From the NCBI RefSeq assembly GCF_916700565.1, contig NZ_CAKAKO010000002.1, forward strand, positions 434,001-498,000: a stretch of DNA of 64,000 bases. The letters are read 5' to 3'. The translations under genes and the position numbers were made by a program. The notes under the pieces were generated by a model. It had not been told where the DNA came from and made no database searches. It saw only the letters and a list, made by a program, of their open reading frames with translations. This document shows, in pieces, positions 6,550 to 27,957 of this stretch. How positions within the stretch are numbered: the first letter of the stretch is position 1; each line of letters starts with the position of its first letter. The DNA comes from Xenophilus sp. Marseille-Q4582. Lineage in GTDB: Bacteria > Pseudomonadota > Gammaproteobacteria > Burkholderiales > Burkholderiaceae_C.

Positions 6550-7926
6550 TCAGGCCGACGACGCCTTGCCGGCCGCCGCGGTCGCCGGGAAGGATTGATT
6601 CACCCCATCCAGCACGGCTTCGGGCTCCTGTGCTTCGGCGGGCGTCTCGTTGTTCAGCACCTGGTGCATGCGGCTGGCGTCCAGGTCGCCCGTCCACTTG
6701 CCCACCACCACAGTGGCCACGCCGTTGCCGATTAGGTTGGTCAGCGCGCGCGCCTCGGACATGAAGCGGTCGATGCCCAGGATCAGCGCCAGGCCGGCCA
6801 CCGGCACATGGCCCACGGCCGACAGCGTGGCCGCCAGCACGATGAAGCCCGAACCCGTGACGCCGGCGGCGCCCTTGCTCGTGAGCAGCAGCACCAAGAG
6901 CAGCGTGATCTGGTGCGTGATGTCCAGCGGCGTGTTGGTGGCCTGGGCGATGAACACGGCGGCCATGGTCAGGTAGATCGAGGTGCCGTCCAGGTTGAAG
7001 GAGTAGCCGGTCGGGATCACCAGGCCCACGGTGGACTTCTTGACGCCCAGGTTCTCCAGCTTCGCCATCATGCGCGGCAGCACCGATTCGCTGGACGAGG
7101 TGCCCAGCACGATCAGCAGTTCTTCCTTGATGTACTTGATGAATTTCCACACCGAGAAGCCGTGCGCGCGCGCGATGGCGCCCAGCACCACGAAGATGAA
7201 CAGCAGGCAGGTGACGTAGAAGGTGGCCATGAGCTGGCCCAGCTGCACCAGCGAACTGACGCCGTACTTGCCGATGGTGAAGGCCATGGCACCGAAGGCG
7301 CCGATGGGCGCGACCTTCATGATGTAGCCCACGATCACGAAGAGAACGTGCGAAAACTTCTCGATGAAGTCGAACACCAGCGTGCCGCGACCGCCGAACT
7401 TGTGCAGCGCGAAGCCGAACATCACCGAGAACAGCAGCACCTGCAGGATCTCGCCCTTGGCGAAGGCGTCCACCACGGTGCTCGGGATCACGTGCAGGAT
7501 GAAGTCCACCGTGCCCTGCATCTGGCCGGGTTGGGTGTAGGCCGCAATGGCCTTGGTGTCCAGCTGGCTCGCGTCCACGTTCATGCCGGCGCCGGGCTTG
7601 ACGATGTTGATGATGACCAGGCCGACCACGAGCGCGATGGAACTGACGATCTCGAAGTACAGCAGCGCATAGCCGCCGGTCTTGCCGACGCGCTTCATGT
7701 CCTCCATGCCCGCGATGCCCACCACCACCGTACAGAAGATGATGGGCGCGATGATCATCTTGATCAGCTTGATGAAGCCGTCGCCCAGCGGTTTCATGGC
7801 GGCGCCGGTGTCGGGATAGAAGTGCCCGAGCAGCACGCCGATCACGATGGCCGTGATGACCTGAAAGTACAGCGACTTGTAGAAGGGTTGGGCGCGCGGG
7901 GGCGCGGTGTGTTCCGTGTGTTCCAT
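6550..7926 (-). CDS. dctA: C4-dicarboxylate/proton symporter DctA
   Basis: This 458-residue dicarboxylate/amino acid:cation symporter has the full family length and eight or so hydrophobic segments. The DctA signatures are present: the start [20 protein letters not shown], the serine-rich re-entrant motif ([12 protein letters not shown]), the [13 protein letters not shown] motif, and the [19 protein letters not shown] loop. It imports succinate, fumarate and malate across the inner membrane. The reading starts at the ATG at 7926. Upstream lies a TGGCAC-N5-TTGC sigma-54 promoter, and the DctB/DctD pair lies downstream, so induction by dicarboxylates through phospho-DctD is expected. Confidence 0.96.
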
Positions 7927-8240: not shown

Positions 8241-9173
8241 TTAACCCTGAGCCATGGGGCCACTCCGGCCCGGCGGATGGGGGCCCGAGAACAGCTGTGC
8301 CACCGTGCGCCGCAGCCAGACGTTGCCCGCGTCGGCATGGAAGCGGGTGTGCCAGTGCTGCTTGACCGCGTAAGAGGGCATCGGAAACGGCAGGGCCAGC
8401 AGCTTCACCGGCTCCTGCGTGGCCAGGATCTCACCCAGCACGCGCGGCACCATCACCACCAGCTCGGTGCGCGCCACGATGCGCGCCACGCTCAGGAAGC
8501 TGGACAGCCGCACCACCACCTGCCGCTGCACGCCCAGGCGTGCGAGCGTCTTGTCGATGATCGCGTGGCCCGTGCCCGAGGACGCGATCACCGCATGCGA
8601 CTCGGCCTCGAATCGCTTGCGCGTGAGCCGGGTGCCGATGCGCGGATGCTCGCGCGCGGCCAGGCACACGAAGTTCTGCATGAACAGCTTCTGCTGGTAG
8701 AAGCCCGCGTCCAGCTGCGGCATGAAGCCCACGGCCAGGTCCAGCGCGCCTTCCTCCAGCCGGCGTGCGCTGGCGGTGGAGACGATCTCGGTCTCGATGT
8801 GCACGCCCGGCGCCCGCTGGCGCAGGTGCCCCAGCAGCATGGGCAGCAGCACCACCTCGCTGATGTCCGTCATGCAGATGCGAAAGCTGCGCTCGGCGCG
8901 CGCCGGGTCGAAGCCGCGCTGGCTGCCGCGCGCCTGTTCCAGCTGCGCCAGCACCTCGCGCAGGTGCGGGTGGATGCGCTGCGCATGCGGCGTGGGCAGC
9001 ATGCCCTGGGCGGTGCGCGTGAACAGCCGGTCGTCGAAATGCGCGCGCAGCTTGTTGAGCATGGTGCTGGCGGCCGCCTGCGCGATGCCCAGCTTGTCGG
9101 CCGCGCGCGAAACGCTGCCCGTGCGGTAGATCTCGTCGAACACCGCGAGCCATGCCAGATCCAGAGTTGCCAT
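8241..9173 (-). CDS. LysR-family regulator divergent from gentisate genes
   Basis: This 310-residue LysR-type activator has its winged helix-turn-helix in residues 1-65 (LAWLAVFDEIYRTGSVSRAA, DKLGIAQAAASTMLNKLRAHF) and a periplasmic-binding-protein-like effector domain after that. The frame is open far upstream to 10550 but that stretch only mirrors the dioxygenase gene. The ATG at 9173 gives a standard LysR length. It is divergent from gtdA with 180 bp between the starts, the classical arrangement in which a LysR protein controls the neighbouring operon in response to a pathway intermediate, probably 3-hydroxybenzoate or gentisate. The helix begins LDLAWLAVFDEI as in NodD/NahR-like members. 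Confidence 0.85.
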   Translation of the reverse strand: MATLDLAWLAVFDEIYRTGSVSRAADKLGIAQAAASTMLNKLRAHFDDRLFTRTAQGMLPTPHAQRIHPHLREVLAQLEQARGSQRGFDPARAERSFRICMTDISEVVLLPMLLGHLRQRAPGVHIETEIVSTASARRLEEGALDLAVGFMPQLDAGFYQQKLFMQNFVCLAAREHPRIGTRLTRKRFEAESHAVIASSGTGHAIIDKTLARLGVQRQVVVRLSSFLSVARIVARTELVVMVPRVLGEILATQEPVKLLALPFPMPSYAVKQHWHTRFHADAGNVWLRRTVAQLFSGPHPPGRSGPMAQG

Positions 9174-9353
9174 CCTGGGCCTCCTGCAGCCGAACGCCGC
9201 GTGCCGGGCACCGACCATTATTTCGTTTTGGAATGACAAGTATCGTGCAGCGTGCTTGATCGGATAGTGGTGCGGCCGAACAATGCGTGCCAGCCCCGGA
9301 TGGGCGTGCATCCCATGCCCGCCGCCCGGCGGCCCTGCCCCGGAGACATCGCC
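9174..9353. promoter_or_regulatory. Divergent LysR-gtdA control region
   Basis: This 180-bp gap separates the divergent LysR and gentisate dioxygenase genes and contains an A/T-richer patch at 9216-9245. Within it CATT (9216-9219) and AATG (9232-9235) form a small inverted repeat with 12 bases between, loosely like a LysR box. A ribosome binding site GGAGA at 9342-9346 sits 7 bases before the gtdA ATG. The operator assignment is tentative. Confidence 0.4.
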
Positions 9354-10427
9354 ATGAACACCGCCCTGCCCCAGGATGCCGGCCAAGCCGCTGCGCGGGC
9401 CGAACGCCGCGCCTACTACGAGCGCATCCGCGCGCTGCATCTCTCGCCCCTGTGGGAGTCGCTGCATGCGCTGGTGCCGCGCGAGCCGCAGAGCCCCTGC
9501 GTGCCGGCGCTGTGGCGCTATGCGGACATCCGGCCCTTCCTCATGGAGTCGGCCACGCTGATCACGGCCGAAGAAGCGGTGCGCCGCGTGCTGGTGCTCG
9601 AGAACCCGGCCCTCCACGGCCGCGCCTCCATCACGCAGTCGCTGTACGCGGGCCTGCAGTTGATCATGCCGGGCGAAGTGGCGCCCGCACACCGGCACAC
9701 GCAGTCGGCGCTGCGCTTCATCGTCGACGGCCAAGGGGCGTACACCACCGTGGGCGGCGAGCGCACCACCATGTTCCCGGGCGACTTCATCATCACGCCC
9801 TCGTGGGCCTGGCACGACCACGGCAACGAGGGCATCGCCGGCACGAGCGAGCCGGTGGTGTGGCTCGACGGTCTGGACATTCCCATGCTGCGCTTCTTCG
9901 ACGCCGGCTTCGCCGAGAACGACGACGTGAAGGTCCAGCGCGTGGCACGGCCGGAAGGGCACAGCTTCGCGCGCTTCGGCCACAACATGGTGCCGGTGCG
10001 GCATGACCATGCGAGCGCCACCTCGCCCATCTTCAGCTACCCCTATGCGCGCAGCCGCGAGGCGCTGGCGCAGCTGGCGAAGCAGGAAGCGCCCGACGCC
10101 TGGACCGGCCACAAGCTGCGCTACGTCAACCCGCTGACCGGCGGCTCGCCCATGCCCACGATCCAGCCCTTCCTGCAGTTGCTGCCGGCGGGCTTCTCGG
10201 GCGGCGCGCACCGCAGCACCGACGGCACGGTCTACAGCGTGGTCGAAGGCCGGGGCCAGGCCGAGATCGCGGGGCAGCGCTTCGACTTCGCTCCCAAGGA
10301 CACCTTCGTCGTGCCTTCGTGGGCGCCGCTGCGCCTCGTCGCGCAGGACGAGGTGGTGCTGTTCAGCTTCTCCGACCGCCCCGTGCAGCAGGCCATGGAC
10401 GTGCTGCGCGAGCACTTCGAGCGGTGA
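9354..10427 (+). CDS. gtdA: Gentisate 1,2-dioxygenase
   Basis: This 357-residue bicupin opens the aromatic ring of gentisate with O2 to give maleylpyruvate (EC 1.13.11.4). The start at 9354 is chosen because GGAGA lies 7 bases before it; the frame is open to 9252 but without a good ribosome site. The N-terminal cupin holds the probable iron ligands His113 and His115 (PAHRHTQ) and a later His154/His156 pair (WAWHDHGN). The C-terminal cupin (HRSTDGTVYSVVEGRG) lacks a full metal set, as is usual in the family. It is the first gene of a run that includes a fumarylpyruvate-hydrolase-like enzyme and a 3-hydroxybenzoate 6-hydroxylase-like enzyme. A 173-bp gap with a GC-rich repeat separates it from the next gene. 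Confidence 0.93.
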   Translation: MNTALPQDAGQAAARAERRAYYERIRALHLSPLWESLHALVPREPQSPCVPALWRYADIRPFLMESATLITAEEAVRRVLVLENPALHGRASITQSLYAGLQLIMPGEVAPAHRHTQSALRFIVDGQGAYTTVGGERTTMFPGDFIITPSWAWHDHGNEGIAGTSEPVVWLDGLDIPMLRFFDAGFAENDDVKVQRVARPEGHSFARFGHNMVPVRHDHASATSPIFSYPYARSREALAQLAKQEAPDAWTGHKLRYVNPLTGGSPMPTIQPFLQLLPAGFSGGAHRSTDGTVYSVVEGRGQAEIAGQRFDFAPKDTFVVPSWAPLRLVAQDEVVLFSFSDRPVQQAMDVLREHFER

Positions 10428-16666: not shown

Positions 16667-17650
16667 TCAGCGGTAGCCGCTCTCGTTGGCGTTGTGGATG
16701 ATCCAGATCAGGTTGCCGCTGGTGTAGTCGCCCATGCCGCCGCCGGCGAAGATCAGGCGGCCCTGGCCCTTGTAGGTCATCTCGTAGCGGTGGCGGTCGC
16801 CGCCGAAATAGAAGGGGATGAAGGCCTTGCCCGTCACGTAGGCGCCCTGGTCGGTGGGCGGGCCGATCAGGTCGGTGACCTGGCGCACGGGCATGCCGAT
16901 CTGCAGGCGCGTGAACTTGCTGCCCGGGGCGGGGTTGCCGGTGATCTCGCCTTCGTAGTCGTTCAGGCCCTTCACGGTGCGGCCGCTGCCGGCTTCCACC
17001 TTGGACGAATCCACCACGTTGCCGCGCGCGTCCATGCCCGGCTTGCCGGCGCCCACGGTGCCGGCGCCGCCCGAAGCGGCCGGGGCCGGTGCGGCCGCCG
17101 CAGGCGCGGGCGCCGGTGCCGGCGCTGCAGCGCGCGGGGCGGGTGCCGCAGCCGGTGCGGGGGCGGCCGCGCCGGCGCCGGCCTCGCAGCGGGCCAGCTC
17201 CACCGTGCGCGTCGCGCCGCTGGCTGGCATGCGCACGGCGCGCACTTCGGCGCTCACCGGGCCGCCCTGGAAGCCGCGCTCCGTGCTCAGGCAGCGGAAG
17301 AACACGTTGTCGCCCGCCTGCACCATGTATGTGCCTGCGGCGGCGCCGCGGCCCGTGGCGCGCTGCAGGTCGACCGACACCGTCTGGCCGATCAGTTCCT
17401 GGCGGGCCTTGGTGATCGGACCCTTGAGGGTGGCGGCCACCTCGGCATAGCCCAGGCCCGCGGGTGCGGCGGGTTCGGGCGCCGGCGCAGGTGCCGGGGC
17501 CGGCGCGGCGGCCGGTGGAGCCGCAGCAGCTGCGCCCGCGGAGCCGGCGCTACCGCCCGAGCCCGAGGCGCACCCCGCCAACGCCATCACGCTGGCGGCC
17601 GCCAGGCCCAGAGCGGACAGGGAGAAGAGATCGAATCGGTTTTTTTGCAT
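16667..17650 (-). CDS. SmpA/BamE-domain outer membrane lipoprotein with Ala/Pro-rich linkers
   Basis: A 327-residue predicted lipoprotein read from the ATG at 17650; the open frame reaches 17776 but the later start places the signal peptide correctly. The signal ends in the lipobox LAGC (ASVMALAGCASG). Two low-complexity Ala-Pro stretches, roughly residues 40-60 and 160-195, flank a middle domain (GYAEVAATLKGPITKARQEL) with two Cys. The C-terminal 80 residues (FTRLQIGMPVRQVTDLIGPP, then the FYFGGDRHRYEMTYKG core) resemble the SmpA/OmlA (BamE) fold. The exact role is unknown. It is transcribed divergently from the giant adhesin, whose downstream partner carries a related fold, so a role in adhesin assembly or cell-wall attachment is possible. 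Confidence 0.75.
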   Translation of the reverse strand: MQKNRFDLFSLSALGLAAASVMALAGCASGSGGSAGSAGAAAAAPPAAAPAPAPAPAPEPAAPAGLGYAEVAATLKGPITKARQELIGQTVSVDLQRATGRGAAAGTYMVQAGDNVFFRCLSTERGFQGGPVSAEVRAVRMPASGATRTVELARCEAGAGAAAPAPAAAPAPRAAAPAPAPAPAAAAPAPAASGGAGTVGAGKPGMDARGNVVDSSKVEAGSGRTVKGLNDYEGEITGNPAPGSKFTRLQIGMPVRQVTDLIGPPTDQGAYVTGKAFIPFYFGGDRHRYEMTYKGQGRLIFAGGGMGDYTSGNLIWIIHNANESGYR

Positions 17651-17977
17651 GGTGTCGTTTTTGGATGAGAAAGATGCGGCTCGACGCCGCGTGACTGAGC
17701 ACCGCCGCCATTGTGGCTGAGGGGCCCGTGGCGGTAATGCGACGCTTTCATATTCAGAGCAAAGAGCTGAGTGCATTCACATTTGGAATCAATCGTTGTT
17801 CTTTGTGATTGATTTCACGCAATCATGGTATGTCGCACTTGCGTGCCACGTTTTGCCAACCTGATCACACCACAAACGACGGCGACCTTTCTACAGTCGC
17901 CCATCCTAGACCCGTGGCCGCTGGATGCGAGGCCGCTTCGTAGGCTGTCCCTTCGTCAAATTATCGAGGTAAGAGTC
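17651..17977. promoter_or_regulatory. Divergent control region of the adhesin and SmpA lipoprotein genes
   Basis: This 327-bp gap is clearly richer in A/T than its surroundings, especially 17745-17900, and must hold promoters for both directions. It contains a perfect 8-bp inverted repeat, AATCAATC (17787-17794) and GATTGATT (17807-17814), overlapping a CRP-like site TGTGA-N6-TCACG (17804-17819). A GAGG ribosome site lies at 17966-17969 before the adhesin ATG. Confidence 0.6.
17804..17819. promoter_or_regulatory. CRP/FNR-family-like operator
   Basis: TGTGA (17804-17808), six bases, then TCACG (17815-17819) matches the CRP consensus half-sites at nine of ten positions. It lies 160 bp upstream of the adhesin ATG and overlaps the right arm of an 8-bp inverted repeat. 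Binding by a CRP-type regulator is inference. Confidence 0.45.
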
Positions 17978-20900
17978 ATGAACAAGAGCTACCGGAGCAT
18001 TTGGAACGAGTCGCTGGGCGCGTGGGTGGCGGCCAGCGAAATCACCTCGGCACGCGGCAAGCGCAGCAGCGCAGGGACATCCACAGCGGCACCCGTGTGG
18101 CGCCTGCGCGGCCTGGTGGGCGGCATGCTGGTGGCCCTGGGGGCGCTGAGCACGCCGGCGGGCGCACAGACCTTTGACCCGACGACAGGGGCTTCCTGCT
18201 CGCGTCCCGCAGGAGCCACCACCGCGGCCTGGGTCTGCCAGGTGCCCACGGGCAACGGCGGCTTTGCCACCGTGACCGGCGCAGCCGGCGTGGGCGCGAG
18301 CCCGAACTTCACGACCTTGGCGAACTGGGTGAGCACCAACCTCACCGGTGCCAACGCCATCGTGCTGGGCACCGCGTCCACCAAGGCCTTGGGTCAGAAC
18401 GGCATTGCCATCGGAGCCGGTGCCCAGTCCGCCGCGGGGACCGTGGACTCGCTGTCTTACAACGTCGCCATCGGCAACGGGGCCGAGGCCAGCACCGCGG
18501 CCTCCACCTTCACCACAGGATCCGGCGGTGCGGTGGCCGTCGGGCACGGCCAGAAGGCCAACGGCGTCGGCGCGGTGGCCATCGGCTCGAGCAACACCGC
18601 GACCGGTGATGGCGCCGTGGCGGTGGGGCGCATCAACCAGGCCACGGCACCAGGTGCCGTGGCGCTCGGTGACTCGGCCGAAGCGACGGGCTCGCGCGCG
18701 GTGGCGATGGGGACGACGACCGACGCCACGGCGGATTCGACCGTGGCCATCGGCAACGGCTCCGAAGCTACTGCCACAAGCGCCATTTCCATCGGCCGCA
18801 TTGCGAAGGCAACGGGCACGAATGCGATCGCGATGAGCGGCAGCGCGGTGGCCAGCGGGACCAGTGCATTGGCCATGGGGCGCTCGGCAGACGCGACCCA
18901 GGACTACGCGATTGCCATTGGCGATGACGCGCAGGGCACCGGATTGCGCGGTCTGGCGGTGGGGCGCAGTGCGCAGGCCACTGGAACGGACGCAACGGCC
19001 CTGGGCACGCGCGCAGTGGCTTCGGGGGCCAATGCCGTGGCCATGGGCGGCAGCGACACAGCCGCCAACGCGGCGCAGGCGACGGGCGCACGTGCCACGG
19101 CGATGGGCTACGGCAGCCTGGCGAGTCAGACGGACACTATCGCCATCGGCGATGCAGAGGCATCTGGCCTGCAGGCCATTGCGATCGGCAAGGGCGCTGT
19201 GGCCTCGGGTGCAAGCAGCATAAGCATCGGTGTCGGCAATGTGGTGGCCGGTGCACGCTCGGGCGCCTTGGGCGACCCCAGCGTCATCAATGGCGCCGAC
19301 AGCTACAGCGTCGGCAACAACAACAAGATCAGTGCTGCCACCAGCAACGCGTTCGCGTTGGGCAACAACGTCTATCTGGGCACCGACGCCACGGGCACGC
19401 CCAACAACAACGTCAGTGGCGCCGTGGCGTTGGGCAGCAATAGCAGCGTGACCCAGGCGGGCGGTGTGGCGCTGGGGCAGAACTCGGTGGCCAGCACCGC
19501 AGCAGGTGTTGCCGGCTATGACCCGACGACCGGCGCGCTCACCAAGCAAAGCGGCGCCACCTGGAACAGCACCCTGGCGGCCGTGAGCGTGGGCAGCGGC
19601 ACGGCCGGCAGCGCGGCCACCGCCACGCGCCAGATCACGGGTGTAGCGGCTGGGTCGACGGCGACCGATGCCGTGAACGTGGCGCAGCTGAAGGCCGCGC
19701 AGACGCACTACTACAGCGTCAACGACAACGGCAAGCAGTTGGCCAACTATGCTAACGACGGCGCCACCAGCACTGGCATCAACGCGTTGGCAGCGGGCAC
19801 ACGGGCAACGGCCACCACCGAGTCGGCGACGGCCGTGGGTGACAAAGCCGCCGCAACCGGCCTCACGGCAACCGCAGTGGGCTATGCCACAGAAGCAGAG
19901 GGCTCGTACAGCGTTGCCATTGGTTCTGGTGCGCAGGCGCTTGGAGATCTTTCTTATGCCTTGGGCAACAACGCGTTGGCCCGGGCCTATGACGTGGCCG
20001 TGGGCGCAGGTGCCTTGGGCACGTCCACAGGGTCCACGATGACGACCGCCGTGGGTTTGCAGGCGGGTGCCGAATCGGTCAATGCCGCCAAGTCGACTTT
20101 TGTGGGTGCCGGTTCGGGCAACAAGAGTGCGGGGGCGCTCAATACCTACGCTGGGTATGCCGCTGGCGCACTCGCATCAGGCTCCAACAATGTGGCTTCA
20201 GGCTTGGGTGCCGGTGTAGCCGTGATAGGCAGCGGCAACGTGGCCATCGGAAGTGAAGCGGGCACCGCTGTTCCGTTTGATGCGAGCGGCAATTCCCCGA
20301 CGGTCATCACGCCCGGTATGAAGTCCACCTATAGCAACGCGGTCTCCATTGGCAACCGTGCGCTGGCTGGCATGGACCGCGCTGTTGCCCTGGGCGCCAA
20401 CACCAATGTGTATGTGGATGATGGCGTGGCGCTGGGTGCGGGCAGCGTGGCCTACACATCTGGCGGCAATCCGGGGTACATCCCGGGAGGCGCATCGGCC
20501 TCGCAAGTTACCAACATCGAGAACACCAACAGCACCACATTGGGGGCGGTGAGTGTGGGCGGTGGGTTGGGGGGCAACCGTCAGATCACCAATCTGGCGG
20601 CGGGCACTTATGACAGCGATGCGGTCAACGTGGCGCAACTGCAAGCCGCGCAGACGCGCTACTACAGCGTCAACTCCAACGCCACCGGCCCCAATAGCAA
20701 CTACGACAACGATGGCGCCAAAGCCCCGGGCGCGCTGGCAGCAGGCTCGGGTGCACAGGCGGAGGGTACGAACTCGACCGCGATCAATGGAATCGTTGAA
20801 CCCGGCGCGGACTACGCAGTTTCGGTTGGCGGGATCGCAAGGGGCTACAGCTCTGTGGCAATCGGCGTCTACGGGCCAAGCTCCACGGTGGCTGAGGGCG

Positions 20901-23900
20901 CACGTTCCGTCGCGCTGGGCGCCAGTGCCTATGCCGAAACGGAAGACAGTGTTGCGCTGGGCAGCTTATCAAGGGCCAGCAGGGCACCGGGCATGCCCGG
21001 CTACAACCCGGCGGGTGGCGCAGCGCCTGCCGGTGGTGTGTGGAACAGCACACACGGAGAGGTAAGCGTGGGCTCCGGTGAGTATGTCACCCGTCAGATC
21101 ACCGGTGTGGCTGCGGGTTCGGAGGATTCCGACGCGGTGAATGTGGCGCAGCTCAAGGCAGTACAGCAGCACTACTACAGTGTCAATGACACGGGCGCCG
21201 TGCGCCTGCCGGGCGACGGCACCAACTACAAGAACGATGGCGCCACGGGCATCCAGGCCCTGGCTGCCGGCATCGGCGCCAGTGCCGGCTCGAACGGCAG
21301 CGTGGCCATCGGCACGAACGCCGCGGTTCCTCTGGACGCTTCGTCGCCCGAGGTGTTCGAAAACAGTGTGGCCATCGGCACCAATGCCAAGGTGGGTACC
21401 GTGGGGTCGGTCAGTCCCACGGGAGGGACGATGTTTGGGGCCACGGCAGTGGGCCACGATGCGCAGACTGCCTACGGTGGCTCAGTGGCCATCGGTGCGG
21501 CCCGAGCCAACGAAATCAATAGCATTGCCATTGGCGCCCAATCGCCTTACTACGCCCTGGCGGACAGCGATGGTTCCCTGGCCATCGGCAATGCCGCTCA
21601 CGTCACGCTCGACAGCCCCGGCGGGCAGGCCATCGGTCGGGGTGCCGAGGTGACCGGCGCTGGCGCACAGGCCATGGGCCAGTCGGCCAAGGCCAGCGGC
21701 CTGGGCGCGGTGGCGATCGGCGGCTCCTCGGCCCTCAGCACCGATCCAACGGTGCCGTTCGGCCCGGCCGCCAATGCGCTGGCCGACTATGCGGTGGCCA
21801 TTGGCGGGACGGCCAAGGTGGAAACCGGTGCAGAGGGGGGTATCAGCCTGGGCAACGAGTCCGTGGTGGCCGCCGGCGCGACGGGCGCACTGGCCTTGGG
21901 CACCAGTGCCAAGAGCACGGTGGCTGGCGCTGTGGCGCTGGGCAGTGGCTCGGTGGCCAGCACGGCCGCCGGCATCGTGGGCTATGACCCGAGCACCGGC
22001 ACCACGGCGCTGGCCGGCACGGCCATCGCCAACACCAAGAGCACCTTGGGCGCGGTGAGCGTGGGCGATGTGGCGAACAACCAGTACCGCCAGATCACGG
22101 GCGTGGCAGCGGGTACCAATGACAGTGACGCAGTGAATGTGAGCCAGCTCAAGGCGGTGGGCAACCTGCCGTTGAGCTTCACGGGCGACAGCGGCACCAA
22201 GGTGGATCGCAAGCTGGGCGAGACGCTGAGCGTGGTGGGCGGGGCCACGGGCAAGCTGACCGACAACAACATCGGTGTGGTGGCCAACGGCACCGACACA
22301 TTGACGGTGAAGCTGGCCGAGCAGATCGACCTGGGCGCAGCCGGCAGTGTGACCACGGGCGGTACGAAGATGGACACCACGGGCGTGGTCATCACCGGTG
22401 GCCCGAGCATGACCACCACCGGTATCAATGCCGGCAATCTGGCGATCACCAACGTGGCGCCAGGCACCATCAGCAGCACGAGCAAGGAGGCGGTCAACGG
22501 CAGCCAGTTGAATGGCCTGGGCACGACCATCGCCAACTCGATCGGCGGCACCACCACCTACAACGGGGCCACGAACACGCTGACCACGGGCCTGACCGTC
22601 AACGGCAACAGCTACACCACGGTGCAGGACGCGCTGGGCTACGCCGGCCAGGGCTGGAAGGTGACGACCGCGCAGACCGGCACGGGCACGGCGACGGGCA
22701 CGACGGTGACGCCTGTGCAGCCGGGCGACACGGCCACCTTCACGGCAGGTGACAACATCGCGATCACGCAGGCAGGCCAGAACCTGACCATTGCCACCAG
22801 TGCGACGCCGAGCTTCACCAGCGTGACCACGGGCAACACCGTGATGGACAACACGGGTGTGACCATCATCGGTGGCACGAACGGCCCCGTCTCACTGACC
22901 AACACGGGACTGAACAACGGCGGCAACACCATCACCAACGTGGCGGCAGGGTCGAACCCGACCGATGCGGTCAACGTGAGCCAGCTGACCACGCTGGCCA
23001 ACAGCCCGCTGAGCTTCGTGGGCGACAGCGGCGCGAAGGTGGACCGCAAGCTGGGCGAGACCCTGAACGTGGTGGGCGGCGCCAGCGGCACGCTGACCGA
23101 CGGCAACATCGGCGTGGTGGCCAACGGCACGGATACACTGACGGTGAAGCTGGCCGAGCAGATCGACCTGGGCGCCGCCGGCAGCGTGACCACGGGCCAG
23201 GGCAAGCTGGACAACAGCGGGCTGACGGTCGCCGACGGCGCGGGCAACACCACCACCACCGGCGTGGCGGGCACCACCGTGACCAACGCAGGCGGCAGCA
23301 CCACCAACGTGGGCGCAGGCGTGGTGAGCGTGGGCGACGGCACCTACACCACCACCCTGAATCCGACCAGCGTGGCGGTGGGCGGGGCCAACCCGATCAA
23401 CATCAGCGGCGCGACGGGCCAGATCACGGGCCTGACCAACACGACGCTGACCGAGCCGGGCTTTGCCACGGTGGGCCGCGCGGCCACCGAGGAGCAGCTG
23501 AGCCTGGTCAACACCACGGCCAACAAGGGCTGGAACGTGACCACGGCGGCGGCCGCGGGCGGCAGCGTCAGCGGCACCAGCGTGGCCAATGTGGCGCCTG
23601 GCGACACCGTGACCTTCACGGCCGGCAAGAACGTGGCCATTACGCAAAGCGGCAAGGACGTGCAGGTGGCGGTGTCTGACACGCCCAACTTCACCAGCGT
23701 GACCACGGGCAACACCGTGATGGACAACACGGGTGTGACCATCACTGGTGGCACGAATGGCCCCGTCTCGCTGACCAACACGGGGTTGAACAACGGCGGC
23801 AACACCATCACCAACGTGGCGGCGGGATCGAACCCGACGGATGCGGTCAATGTGAGCCAGCTGACCACGCTGGCCAACAGCCCGCTGAGCTTCGTGGGCG

Positions 23901-26900
23901 ACAGCGGCGCGAAGGTGGACCGCAAGCTGGGCGAGACCCTGAACGTGGTGGGCGGCGCCAGCGGCACGCTGACCGACGGCAACATCGGCGTGGTGGCCAA
24001 CGGCACGGATACACTGACGGTGAAGCTGGCCGAGCAGATCGACCTGGGCGCCGCCGGCAGCGTGACCACGGGCCAGGGCAAGCTGGACAACAGCGGGCTG
24101 ACGGTCGCCGACGGCGCGGGCAACACCACCACCACCGGCGTGGCGGGCACCACCGTGACCAACGCAGGCGGCAGCACCACCAACGTGGGCGCAGGCGTGG
24201 TGAGCGTGGGCGACGGCACCTACACCACCACCCTGAACCCGACCAGCGTGGCGGTGGGTGGCGCCAACCCGATCAACATCAGCGGCGCGGCCGGCCAGAT
24301 CACGGGCTTGACCAACACGACGCTGACCGAGCCGGGCTTTGCCACGGTGGGCCGCGCGGCCACCGAGGAGCAGCTGAGCCTGGTCAACACCACGGCCAAC
24401 AAGGGCTGGAACGTGACCACGGCGGCGGCCGCGGGCGGCAGCGTCAGCGGCACCAGCGTGGCCAATGTGGCGCCTGGCGACACCGTGACCTTCACGGCCG
24501 GCAAGAACGTGGCCATCACGCAAAGCGGCAAGGACGTGCAGCTGGCGGTGTCCGACACCCCCAGCTTCACCAGCGTGACCACCGGCAACACGGTGATGAA
24601 CAACACGGGCATCAGCATCACGGGCGGCCCCAACAGCCCCGTCTCGCTGACCAACACGGGGTTGAACAACGGCGGCAACACGATCACCAACGTGGCAGCG
24701 GGCGTGAACCCGACGGATGCGGTGAACGTGAGCCAGCTCGATGGGGCACGCACGCGCTACTACAGCGTCAACAGCACCGACAAGACGGCGGGCAGCAATT
24801 ACGACAACGATGGGGCCACGGGTGCGGACGCGATGGCGGCGGGCAGGGGCGCCTCGGCTGCGGGCGCCTACGACGTGGCGATGGGCTCGGGCGCCAGCAC
24901 GACCGGTGCCTATGGTGGCACGGCCATCGGTGGCGGCGACGGCACCGCAGCCAAGAGCACGACGGCGGGTCAGTTCGGCAGTGCCGTGGGCTTCGCGGCG
25001 CAGGCCAAGGGCGTGGGCGACACCGCGGTGGGTACCTATGCCAATACGGGGGCGACCAACCCTGCGGGTGCCACCGACGACAGCGCCAATTCGTACCGCA
25101 CGGCCATTGGCTACAAGGCCAGCACCACGGGCATTGCCTCCACGGCCGTCGGCAGCTTCAACCGAGCCGTGGGTGAGCGCAGTTTTGCGGGCGGCTATGA
25201 AGCCTCGGCCTTGGCCGACGACAGCGTGGCCATTGGCAGCAAGGCGCAATCCACCCAAGGGGGCGGCGTGGCGCTGGGCAGCGGCGCGGTGGCCAGCACG
25301 GCGGGGGGCATCGTGGGGTACGACGCGAGCACCGGCACCACCGCCGCCGCAGGCACGGCCATTGCCAACACCAAGAGCACCCTGGGCGCCGTGAGCGTGG
25401 GCGATGCGGCCAATGGCCAGTTCCGCCAGATCACGGGTGTGGCAGCGGGCAGCGAAGACAGCGACGCCGTCAACGTGAGCCAGCTCAAGGCCGTGGCCGA
25501 CAGTGCGGCGGCGGGCGCCACCCACTTCTACAGCGTGGGCAGCACCGACGCCAAGGCCGGCAACTACAACAACGACGGCGCGCAGGGCAGCAACAGCATC
25601 GCGGCCGGCGTGGGGGCCAGCACCACCGCTGCGGCCACCGGTTCGGTGGCGCTGGGCGAGAACGCCACGGCCAGCCATGCCAACAGCGTGGCGCTGGGCA
25701 GTGGCTCGGTGACGGGGGCCTCGGCCGCGGTGACCACGGCGTCCATCACCACCACCGGCGCCAACGGAGGCACCTACAACTACGGCGGCTTTGCCGGTGC
25801 GAGCAACGTGGTCGGCGTGGTGAGCGTGGGCGGTGCCAATGGCGCCACACGCCAGATCACCAACGTGGCGCCCGGTGCCATCACGGCGACCAGCACCGAT
25901 GCGATCAACGGCAGCCAGCTGTACGCCGTGGCGCAGGGGCTGAACGAGCGCATCGACAACATCCCGACGCAGACGGGGCCGCAGGGGCCGGAAGGTCCGG
26001 CCGGTCCGCAAGGGCCTGCGGGTCCCGCCGGTCCGCAGGGGCCGCAAGGGCAGCCGGGCGCGCAAGGTCCGCAAGGTGCCAAGGGGGACAAGGGCGACAC
26101 CGGAGCCACCGGAGCCACCGGAGCCACCGGAGCCAAGGGCGACACCGGAGCCACGGGCGCTGCAGGCCAGAACGGTCTGAATGGCAAGGACGGCAAGGAT
26201 GGCAAGAACGGCATCGATGCCGACGTGGCGGGCGTGGTGCAGTACACGAAGAATGTGGACGGCACCTACAACAAGAACGAGGTCCACCTGAACCCGAACG
26301 GCAACGGTCCGACCACGATCACCAACGTGGCCAACGGCGTGAACGGCAGCGATGCGGTGAACGTCAACCAGCTGAACACGGCGGCCAACAAGTGGGTCAC
26401 GGCCAACGTGACCGACTACAAGGCGCCGAGCGCCGTGGGCGTGAACGCCACCGCCATCGGCAGTGGCTCGATCGCCGTCGGCACCAACTCCATCGCGATC
26501 GGCACCGGCTCCTTCGACGATGGCCGCGCCAACGTGATGTCGGTGGGCTCGGCGGGCAACGAACGGCAGATCACCAACGTGGCGGCTGGCACGCAGGGCA
26601 CCGACGCGGTGAACGTGAACCAGCTCAACCACATGGGCAACAGCGTGCTGGGCGTGGTGAACAACCAGCTCAACGACCTGCGCAACCAGATCGACGTGAA
26701 CCGTCGCGACGGCAACGCGGGCACGGCCGGCGCCATGGCCATGGCCGGCATGCCGCAGGCCTATCTGCCGGGCAAGAGCATGCTGGCGGCCGGCGTGGGC
26801 TACTACGAAGGCCAGAGCGCGATCGCCATCGGCCTGTCGAAGATTTCCGACAACGGCAAGTGGGTGACCAAGATCACCGGTTCCGCCAACACGCGGGGCA

Positions 26901-26938
26901 AGGTGGGTGCGTCGGTGGGTGTGGGCTACCAGTGGTGA
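17978..26938 (+). CDS. Giant trimeric autotransporter adhesin (YadA/Hia class)
   Basis: Predicted 2986 residues. The start at 17978 begins an extended signal peptide ([20 protein letters not shown]), followed by a hydrophobic core and cleavage near residue 63 (STPAGA-Q). Residues about 110-900 and 2220-2600 are rich in YadA-like head repeats (AIG/ALG-x-A pattern), separated by eleven or so neck motifs (DAVNVAQL or DAVNVSQL). Five YYSVN...NDGA modules follow such necks. Residues 1613-2196 are two tandem 292-residue stalk units. Residues 2667-2745 are collagen-like Gly-X-Y. The last roughly 90 residues (from [17 protein letters not shown] to the terminal GVGYQW) are the YadA membrane anchor forming a 12-strand barrel as a trimer. 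The reading frame is intact. A TpgA-like gene follows after 17 bp. Roles in attachment, autoaggregation or biofilm are expected. Confidence 0.95.
22814..24565 (+). repeat. Two tandem 876-bp repeats inside the adhesin gene
   Basis: Copies at 22814-23689 and 23690-24565 are nearly identical in DNA, each 292 codons, and both start at the phrase [12 protein letters not shown] partial third copy begins at 24566 and fades by about 24740. The unit holds a neck motif ([18 protein letters not shown]) and a stalk segment. Identity at silent positions shows a recent duplication or ongoing gene conversion. The unit length is divisible by three, so copy number can change without frameshift. Confidence 0.95.
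25976..26212 (+). other. Collagen-like Gly-X-Y segment coding region
   Basis: Twenty-six uninterrupted Gly-X-Y triplets (residues 2667-2745) run from GPQGPEGPA through GDKGDTGAT to [10 protein letters not shown]. Pro/Gln-rich triplets come first and Lys/Asp-rich triplets last. Such sequences form triple helices in bacterial surface proteins and suit a trimeric stalk. The segment sits just before the last neck and the membrane anchor region. Confidence 0.9.
26099..26134 (+). repeat. Four tandem copies of a 9-bp unit in the collagen-like segment
   Basis: ACCGGAGCC is repeated four times without change (26099-26134), coding for Thr-Gly-Ala, with a further copy about 10 bases on. The repeat can expand or contract by slippage while keeping frame. 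Confidence 0.9.
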
Positions 26939-26955
26939 GCCGCAAGGAGAAGACC

Positions 26956-27834
26956 ATGAAGAAGCAAGAAAGCAACAAGCTGTCGCGCCGGCCTTCTGCC
27001 GTGCTGTCCTGGGTGGCCGCTGGCTGTGCGGCGCTGCTGCTGGCCGGCTGCGGCACCTCCGTCGTGAGCAAGGGGCTCAATGCCGAGGGCGTGGCGTCGG
27101 AAGTGGTGTTCCCGGACATCGCGAACCGCGCCACCTTGCCCGAGGGCACCTTCGTCAATCGGGACAACCTGCGCGCCGTCGGCGCCGGCCTGAGCAAGGA
27201 CCAGCTGTACGACCTGCTGGGCACCCCGCACTTCCAGGAAGGCATGTTCGGCGTGCGCGAGTGGGACTATGTCTTCAACTTCCGCAGCGGCGGCGGCGTG
27301 ACCACCTGCCAGTACAAGGTGCTGTTCGACAAGGACTATCTGGCGCGCAACTTCCACTGGAAGCCCGACAGCTGCGCGGCCCTGCTGGCGGACACCCCGG
27401 TGCCGGCGCCTGCCGTGGCCGTGGCCGCGCCGACGGTGCCGGCCGCGGCCACGCGCAACTTCCGGCTGACGGCGGATGCCCTCTTTCCCTTCGACCGCTC
27501 AGGTGTGTCCGACCTGAAGCCTGAAGGGCGACGCGCCCTGGACCGGCTGGCGGCCGAGCTGAAGGGCGCGCAGTACGAGCGCGTGGAGGTGGTGGGCCAC
27601 ACCGACCGCCTGGGCTCGGCCGAGTACAACCTGCGCCTGTCGCAGCAGCGCGCGAACACGGTGCGTGCGGTGCTGGTCGAAGGCGGCGTGGCCGCGTCGC
27701 GCATCGACGCGCGCGGCCGGGGCGCCGCCGAGCCCGTGGTGCAGTGCAGCCAGAGTGCGCGCGCTGCGCTGATCGATTGCCTGGCACCCAACCGGCGCGT
27801 GGACGTCAGCGCGCAGGCCAGCGGCAGCCGCTGA
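26956..27834 (+). CDS. TpgA-like lipoprotein: SmpA/BamE-like plus OmpA peptidoglycan-binding domains
   Basis: This 292-residue protein is read from the ATG after AAGGAGA (26944-26950), 17 bp beyond the adhesin stop, so it is almost surely in the same operon. A lipoprotein signal ends in LLAGC (residue about 31). Residues about 70-140 form an SmpA/OmlA-like domain (VGAGLSKDQLYDLLGTPHF ... WDYVFNFRSGG). After an Ala/Pro linker, residues about 175-290 form an OmpA C-terminal domain (FPFDRSGVSDLKPEGRRALD, VVGHTDRLGSAEYNLRLSQQ, RRVDV) that binds diaminopimelate in peptidoglycan. This is the architecture described for TpgA of Acinetobacter, which joins a trimeric autotransporter to the cell wall. 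Two Cys in CSQSARAALIDC may form a disulfide. The function here is inferred from architecture and position. Confidence 0.88.
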   Translation: MKKQESNKLSRRPSAVLSWVAAGCAALLLAGCGTSVVSKGLNAEGVASEVVFPDIANRATLPEGTFVNRDNLRAVGAGLSKDQLYDLLGTPHFQEGMFGVREWDYVFNFRSGGGVTTCQYKVLFDKDYLARNFHWKPDSCAALLADTPVPAPAVAVAAPTVPAAATRNFRLTADALFPFDRSGVSDLKPEGRRALDRLAAELKGAQYERVEVVGHTDRLGSAEYNLRLSQQRANTVRAVLVEGGVAASRIDARGRGAAEPVVQCSQSARAALIDCLAPNRRVDVSAQASGSR

Positions 27835-27924
27835 GCGCGCGGGCGCACCGCCCGGCTTCCCGACACCTGCGCGACAGCGCCAGGGGCTCGAAGGGCTCCT
27901 GCAGACCCTGAAACGCGCATCTCC

Positions 27925-27957
27925 AAAGCCCGGGCGGCGCGCAGCGGCCCGGGCTTT
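27925..27957 (+). terminator. Terminator after the adhesin operon
   Basis: AAAGCCCGGGC (27925-27935) pairs perfectly with GCCCGGGCTTT (27947-27957) around an 11-base loop. It lies about 90 bp beyond the TpgA-like stop and 38 bp before tesB, closing the adhesin operon. Confidence 0.75.

Follow-up and report, generated by a model that had tools for sequence, protein, structure and literature searches.

A gene for a giant adhesin lies between two lipoprotein genes in the window analysed here, a stretch of 64,000 nucleotides (contig C2, positions 434001-498000) from the 5.5 Mb genome of Xenophilus sp. Marseille-Q4582. The locus raises the question of which of the two lipoproteins serves the adhesin, and whether that service ties its trimeric anchor to the cell wall. 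The features concerned are these:

16667..17650, minus strand: divergent lipoprotein of 327 amino acids whose C-terminal domain is probably BamE/OsmE/BLIP-like; judged a neighbour that stands outside the adhesin system
17978..26938, plus strand: trimeric autotransporter adhesin (TAA) of the YadA/Hia/AtaA type, 2986 amino acids, assigned from its reading frame and Pfam domains
26753..26935, plus strand: YadA-type trimeric anchor, the C-terminal transmembrane domain of the adhesin (PF03895, 76.8 bits)
26774..26776, plus strand: codon of Lys2933, equivalent of AtaA K3576 (anchor profile aligned to 9vnj_A)
26849..26851, plus strand: codon of Asp2958, equivalent of AtaA D3601 (same alignment)
26956..27834, plus strand: TpgA-like lipoprotein of 292 amino acids, with a lipobox-like Cys32, a BamE domain (64-132), a linker and an OmpA domain (183-269) carrying D217 and R232
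27196..27201, plus strand: codons of Lys81-Asp82, equivalents of TpgA K64-D65 (alignment to 9vnj_B, whose residue numbers fit the offset)

The adhesin gene encodes a member of the trimeric autotransporter adhesins (type Vc), since it has the anchor, the head and stalk repeats and the ESPR. The ESPR, a long signal at the start of the protein (55.4 bits in hmmscan), is followed by YadA heads (179.3 bits) and stalks (341.7 bits), a collagen-like segment (45.5 bits) and the C-terminal YadA anchor. The anchor call rests on a PF03895 cut-off of 22.7 bits; the anchor is absent from the hmmscan lists for the whole protein and for its last 109 residues. Because a phmmer search of the single anchor against the PDB gave no match, a profile was used instead, made from this anchor and five related ones, and it matches the anchors of Hia (2gr8_A, E 6.3e-29) and AtaA (9vnj_A, E 4.7e-20). 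Two long, near-identical stalk stretches can be seen by eye in the translation of the adhesin (17978-26938); a tandem repeat finder run with periods up to 500 bases reported nothing at score 200.

The partner gene follows directly downstream on the same strand after 17 bp. The earlier note had read here a 2986-residue adhesin, a 17 bp gap and a lipoprotein joining a BamE to an OmpA domain, and the reading frames and Pfam bear this out, with 64.8 bits for the BamE domain (PF04355) and 77 bits for the OmpA domain (PF00691), both above the Pfam cut-offs. The architecture of TpgA, also claimed there, was recovered as well. The best NCBIfam match is TpgA itself (NF047726, E 1.6e-50, residues 37-285); as its 171.8 bits lie below the curated cut-off of 350 and the equivalog test thus fails, we call the protein TpgA-like and not TpgA. 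In the PDB the N-terminal domain matches 9vnj_B best (E 3.8e-17), which is the chain of TpgA in its co-crystal with the transmembrane domain of AtaA; housekeeping BamE structures rank behind it (E 7.7e-5 and weaker). In the OmpA half, D217 and R232 stand 15 residues apart, a spacing kept in 68/68 OmpA-bearing relatives and characteristic of the pair with which OmpA binds peptidoglycan. Ahead of the N-terminal domain, 74 of 86 relatives match a strict lipobox pattern; the other 12 escape the pattern but have a cysteine at that place. On the coding strand no terminator-like site was found between 26800 and 28050, which is weak evidence since none appears after the second gene either. The pair thus has what defines a TAA-TpgA-like cassette: a downstream partner on the same strand, a BamE domain related to the N-terminal domain of TpgA (TpgA-N), and an OmpA domain with its D/R pair.

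Such a cassette is not new to betaproteobacteria, pairs having been published for Burkholderia and Neisseria. A 2007 paper tabulates a gene of the OmpA/SmpA/OmlA family beside a haemagglutinin-family gene in a Burkholderia species, and the four antigens of that haemagglutinin kind have a YadA domain (PMC1847439), so that the combination of a TAA with an OmpA/SmpA protein was already known in a betaproteobacterium. TAA-TpgA-like pairs are named in Burkholderia, Neisseria, Stenotrophomonas and others (PMC13082670), and operons like ataA-tpgA are said to occur in various Gram-negative bacteria (PMC8151025). For Xenophilus, a literature search on trimeric autotransporters yielded no paper. The closest known system is AtaA-TpgA of Acinetobacter sp. 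Tol 5 (PDB 9VNJ; PMC13082670), which likewise consists of a TAA gene and a periplasmic partner with BamE-like and OmpA-like halves. The window's pair shares with it the four reported interface residues and the OmpA D/R pair, and differs from it in the organism, in the stalk and in the sub-threshold score of its partner. The lipobox-like cysteine of the window's partner may be a further difference. On the oligomeric state of TpgA the sources disagree, with a monomer in PMC8151025 and a trimer in PMC6604945 and PMC13082670. SadA-SadB of Salmonella is similar in that a trimeric autotransporter has a lipoprotein helper of its own (PMC3953254; PMC8151025), but SadB is a trimeric lipoprotein of the inner membrane, and TpgA is described as having no similarity to it (PMC8151025).

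Scanning genome contigs with a TpgA-N profile gave 306 relatives, of which the best 80 were kept. Among these best 80 of 306, 75 have a YadA-type anchor whose end lies at most 1000 bp upstream, in the same order and at close spacing, as in the pairs of Burkholderia, Neisseria and Stenotrophomonas; 63 of the 75 anchor-linked partners have the OmpA half and 12 lack it. For the remaining five of the 80 no upstream anchor was found (four without OmpA, one with it). Sampling from the side of the adhesins gives a different proportion. The family scan found 24 YadA anchors in 14/160 genomes, and a scan of the class found anchors in 17/369 genomes, the window's own included. The two scans supplied 57 anchors, of which 54 were counted (L263, L266 and L278 gave no anchor match) and a few distant ones, such as L054 and L280, were retained despite poor alignment. 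A TpgA-N partner lies within 1200 bp of nine of the 54 alignable anchors; judging from this sample, a minority of TAAs is served by a TpgA-like protein. The scan with PF03895 on which this count depends is incomplete, having missed the anchor of a second cassette in the window's own genome. One record titled Bacillus subtilis (L133) carries a Stenotrophomonas-like TAA-TpgA pair, likely by contamination of the assembly.

The aligned residues suggest how the two proteins may meet. The AtaA-TpgA complex is reported to contain two salt bridges, K3576-D65 and D3601-K64 (PMC13082670). The PGK lysine of AtaA and the aspartate 25 residues further on align with Lys2933 and Asp2958, and by alignment all four of the residues given in PMC13082670 are present in the window's pair (K2933, D2958, K81 and D82). 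The position of D3601 is acidic in 81/81 partnered anchors against 4/18 unpartnered ones in the family scan. In the anchor-first set it is acidic in 9/9 partnered and 15/45 unpartnered anchors (Fisher p 2.5e-4, kinship ignored), the wider sampling having raised the unpartnered share from 4/18; in the TpgA-first set, drawn from the best 80 of 306 relatives, the count is 75/75. One place is apparently common to both sets (L046 in the first, L095 in the second, on contigs of equal length). The acid is also found at this position in Hia structures. An acid there looks required for partnering and not sufficient for it. On the side of the partner, Lys81 is invariant in 86/86 TpgA-N domains and Asp82 occurs in 43/86. 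Housekeeping BamE proteins, of which 21 were compared, have arginine (16), lysine (4) or proline (1) in the Lys81 column; a basic residue is thus a trait of the family, its value as a mark of the adhesin partner is weakened, and the strict lysine alone is special. The K3576 site is K or R in 66/81 partnered anchors. In this sample the D3601-K64 contact would be conserved, whereas K3576-D65 would vary.

The lipoprotein on the other side of the adhesin gene tells a different story. The earlier note had given it, too, a BamE-like C-terminal domain. The fold stands as probable, BamE/OsmE/BLIP being the closest known fold for this domain; membership of the Pfam family does not, as the domain scores 12 bits against 23.2 and the PF04355 cut-off is not reached. 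A fold search with the whole protein, whose model is mostly of low confidence, was uninformative, and the C-terminal domain alone did better; NCBIfam matches of the protein were disregarded because they fall mostly on an Ala/Pro-rich linker. Aligned by hhalign, the profiles of this domain and of TpgA-N match with 29% probability over 28 columns. In the register of that alignment the family has no lysine at the position of the TpgA interface lysine in 15/15 rows: arginine stands in one row and V, A, T, M, Q, L or Y in the others.

The distribution of the upstream gene is likewise its own. Its C-terminal domain was found in 8/160 genomes of the family, 9/300 of the order and 14/15 of the genus. 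Thirteen congener loci were examined, and neither a TAA nor a TpgA match was seen in any of them; one (L247), cut off by a contig edge at its start, is not assessable, and two of the 12 assessable congeners (G071 and G463) look like one strain. In 12/12 assessable congeners the gene stands beside the same acyl-CoA thioesterase gene that, by Pfam, follows the tpgA-like gene in the window, with 291-1435 bp between the tblastn matches and no TAA or TpgA in between. The boundaries of the difference are clear in one of them:

17612..27938, no strand: interval that finds no counterpart in congener G454 (L236), where homology breaks off at 17611 and resumes at 27939

The 10.3 kb cassette is present at this site in one of 13 assessable genomes, that of the window, which points to insertion at the site rather than to many losses. 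TpgA-N matches of at least 116 bits occur in 7/15 genomes of the genus, at 12 places, none of them at this site in the 12 assessable congeners. At six homologue loci outside the genus there was no TAA or TpgA match above 70 bits within the stretches, that of L071 extending no further than about 800 bp on its 5' side. Two congeners have other small reading frames at the cassette site (L246, about 8822-10224; L239, about 8593-10024), which read to us like VOC and GNAT proteins. The site may be a variable spot.

Three other readings of the locus have to be weighed. In the first of them, which was the earlier note's own suggestion, the upstream lipoprotein would also aid assembly or attachment of the adhesin in a three-part system. 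Its immediate divergent position and its probable BamE-like fold speak for it, as does the family scan, in which the upstream gene occurs in 8 of the 160 genomes, a YadA anchor in 14 and both in 4, where simple multiplication that ignores kinship predicts 0.7. Two of these four genomes are congeners, and in those other than the window's own the gene shares no contig with an anchor. Against it stand the missing interface lysine, the spread of the gene through 14/15 genomes of a genus where only 7/15 have a TpgA-N match, and the 7/8 order-level carriers in which no YadA anchor was found. Linkage to a TAA or TpgA is 0/12 at the congener loci and, above 70 bits, 0/6 elsewhere, and with this the three-part system, which we hold to be highly improbable, was rejected; the lipoprotein is very likely a neighbour unrelated to the adhesin system. 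Co-occurrence across genomes, the check that the earlier note had proposed, comes out in favour of the TpgA-like partner and against the upstream gene, for which the lack of co-occurrence named there as the contrary outcome is what was found. In another reading the downstream protein would itself be a coincidental neighbour, a stand-alone envelope protein of the OmpA family. Such proteins are common, as some part of the partner has a match in 160/160 genomes of the family, but 75 of the best 80 of 306 relatives of its N-terminal domain follow a YadA-type anchor and three such cassettes occur in the window's genome; coincidence was rejected on the anchor linkage and appears extremely improbable.

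The third reading shifts the weight between the two halves of the partner: it would be mainly a helper in secretion or assembly of the barrel, with wall tethering secondary. Among the 86 TpgA-N proteins compared, the BamE half is common to all by selection, and the OmpA half is present in 68 and absent in 18 (no upstream anchor was found for four of these). At 16/16 BamE-only loci of the named set, no OmpA domain is encoded in the three plus-strand frames. Less AtaA is reported at the surface when TpgA is missing (PMC8151025), and reinforcement was seen in a simulation that included no coupling to the wall (PMC13082670). On the other side, the window's partner does have an OmpA domain with its D/R pair. 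The two roles are compatible with each other, and we regard a mainly assisting role as quite possible while falling short of probable.

A TAA-TpgA-like operon whose partner would bind both anchor and wall, with the upstream lipoprotein separate, is the reading that we consider very probable. That the trimeric anchor is tied to the wall, as the earlier note had supposed, is made probable by the anchor linkage and by the D/R pair. In the model, the adhesin would be exported and its C-terminus would trimerise into an outer-membrane barrel, as in its families. The BamE-like half of the partner would bind this barrel on its periplasmic face through contacts like those of the AtaA-TpgA crystal (Lys81 to Asp2958, Asp82 to Lys2933), and the OmpA half would bind peptidoglycan. 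The pair would help surface display and hold the long fibre in the membrane when it is pulled. The lipoprotein encoded divergently at 16667-17650 would be an older resident of the locus with an envelope function of its own.

The wall-binding half is not a fixed part of such partners even within one genome: three TAA cassettes were found in that of the window, two with both halves and one with BamE only. Besides the cassette described, they are:

C2:964000-975000 (L023): second cassette, both halves, with the TAA up to local position 6643 and the partner downstream
C4:138000-152000 (L024): third cassette, local 8622-9890 and 9841-10371, with a partner of BamE only (Pfam BamE 47.8 bits, no OmpA)

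The TAA of the second cassette shares near-identical stalk stretches with that of the window, as if domains had been exchanged between paralogues. A further BamE-like domain (C4:170283-170567, L233; 48 bits to the TpgA-N profile), in a frame of 257 residues, lies some 22 kb away from the third cassette. In Xenophilus aerolatus E41 a BamE-only TpgA-like gene (L025, 7547-8143, minus strand; also L083 and L087, which look like one strain) has no TAA anchor that we could find upstream; a fragment beside it reads, in our judgement, like an integrase, and the gene is perhaps a remnant. Elsewhere (L049, genome G065) the TpgA-like N-terminal domain is kept and the OmpA domain is replaced by a repetitive tail rich in Pro and Gln. 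The OmpA half is also lacking in relatives from Burkholderia (L105, L114, L120) and Neisseria (L144), unlike the partner in the window. On a quick tree, built from few columns and with many weak forks, the OmpA half changes state at least seven times, a rough figure. We propose tentatively, with close to an even chance of being right, that TpgA-like partners are modular, a constant BamE-like core being matched to the acid in the periplasmic turn of the barrel (AtaA D3601), with an optional wall-binding half that was gained or lost several times.

A known kind of cassette is found here in one more genus, and the value of the case is comparative; the analysis also removes a tempting but wrong story of three genes. 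If the modular reading is true, the ancestral job of these partners would be capping the barrel and not tying it to the wall. With partners that have and lack the wall-binding half in one genome, the role of that half for a giant adhesin can be compared in a single background.
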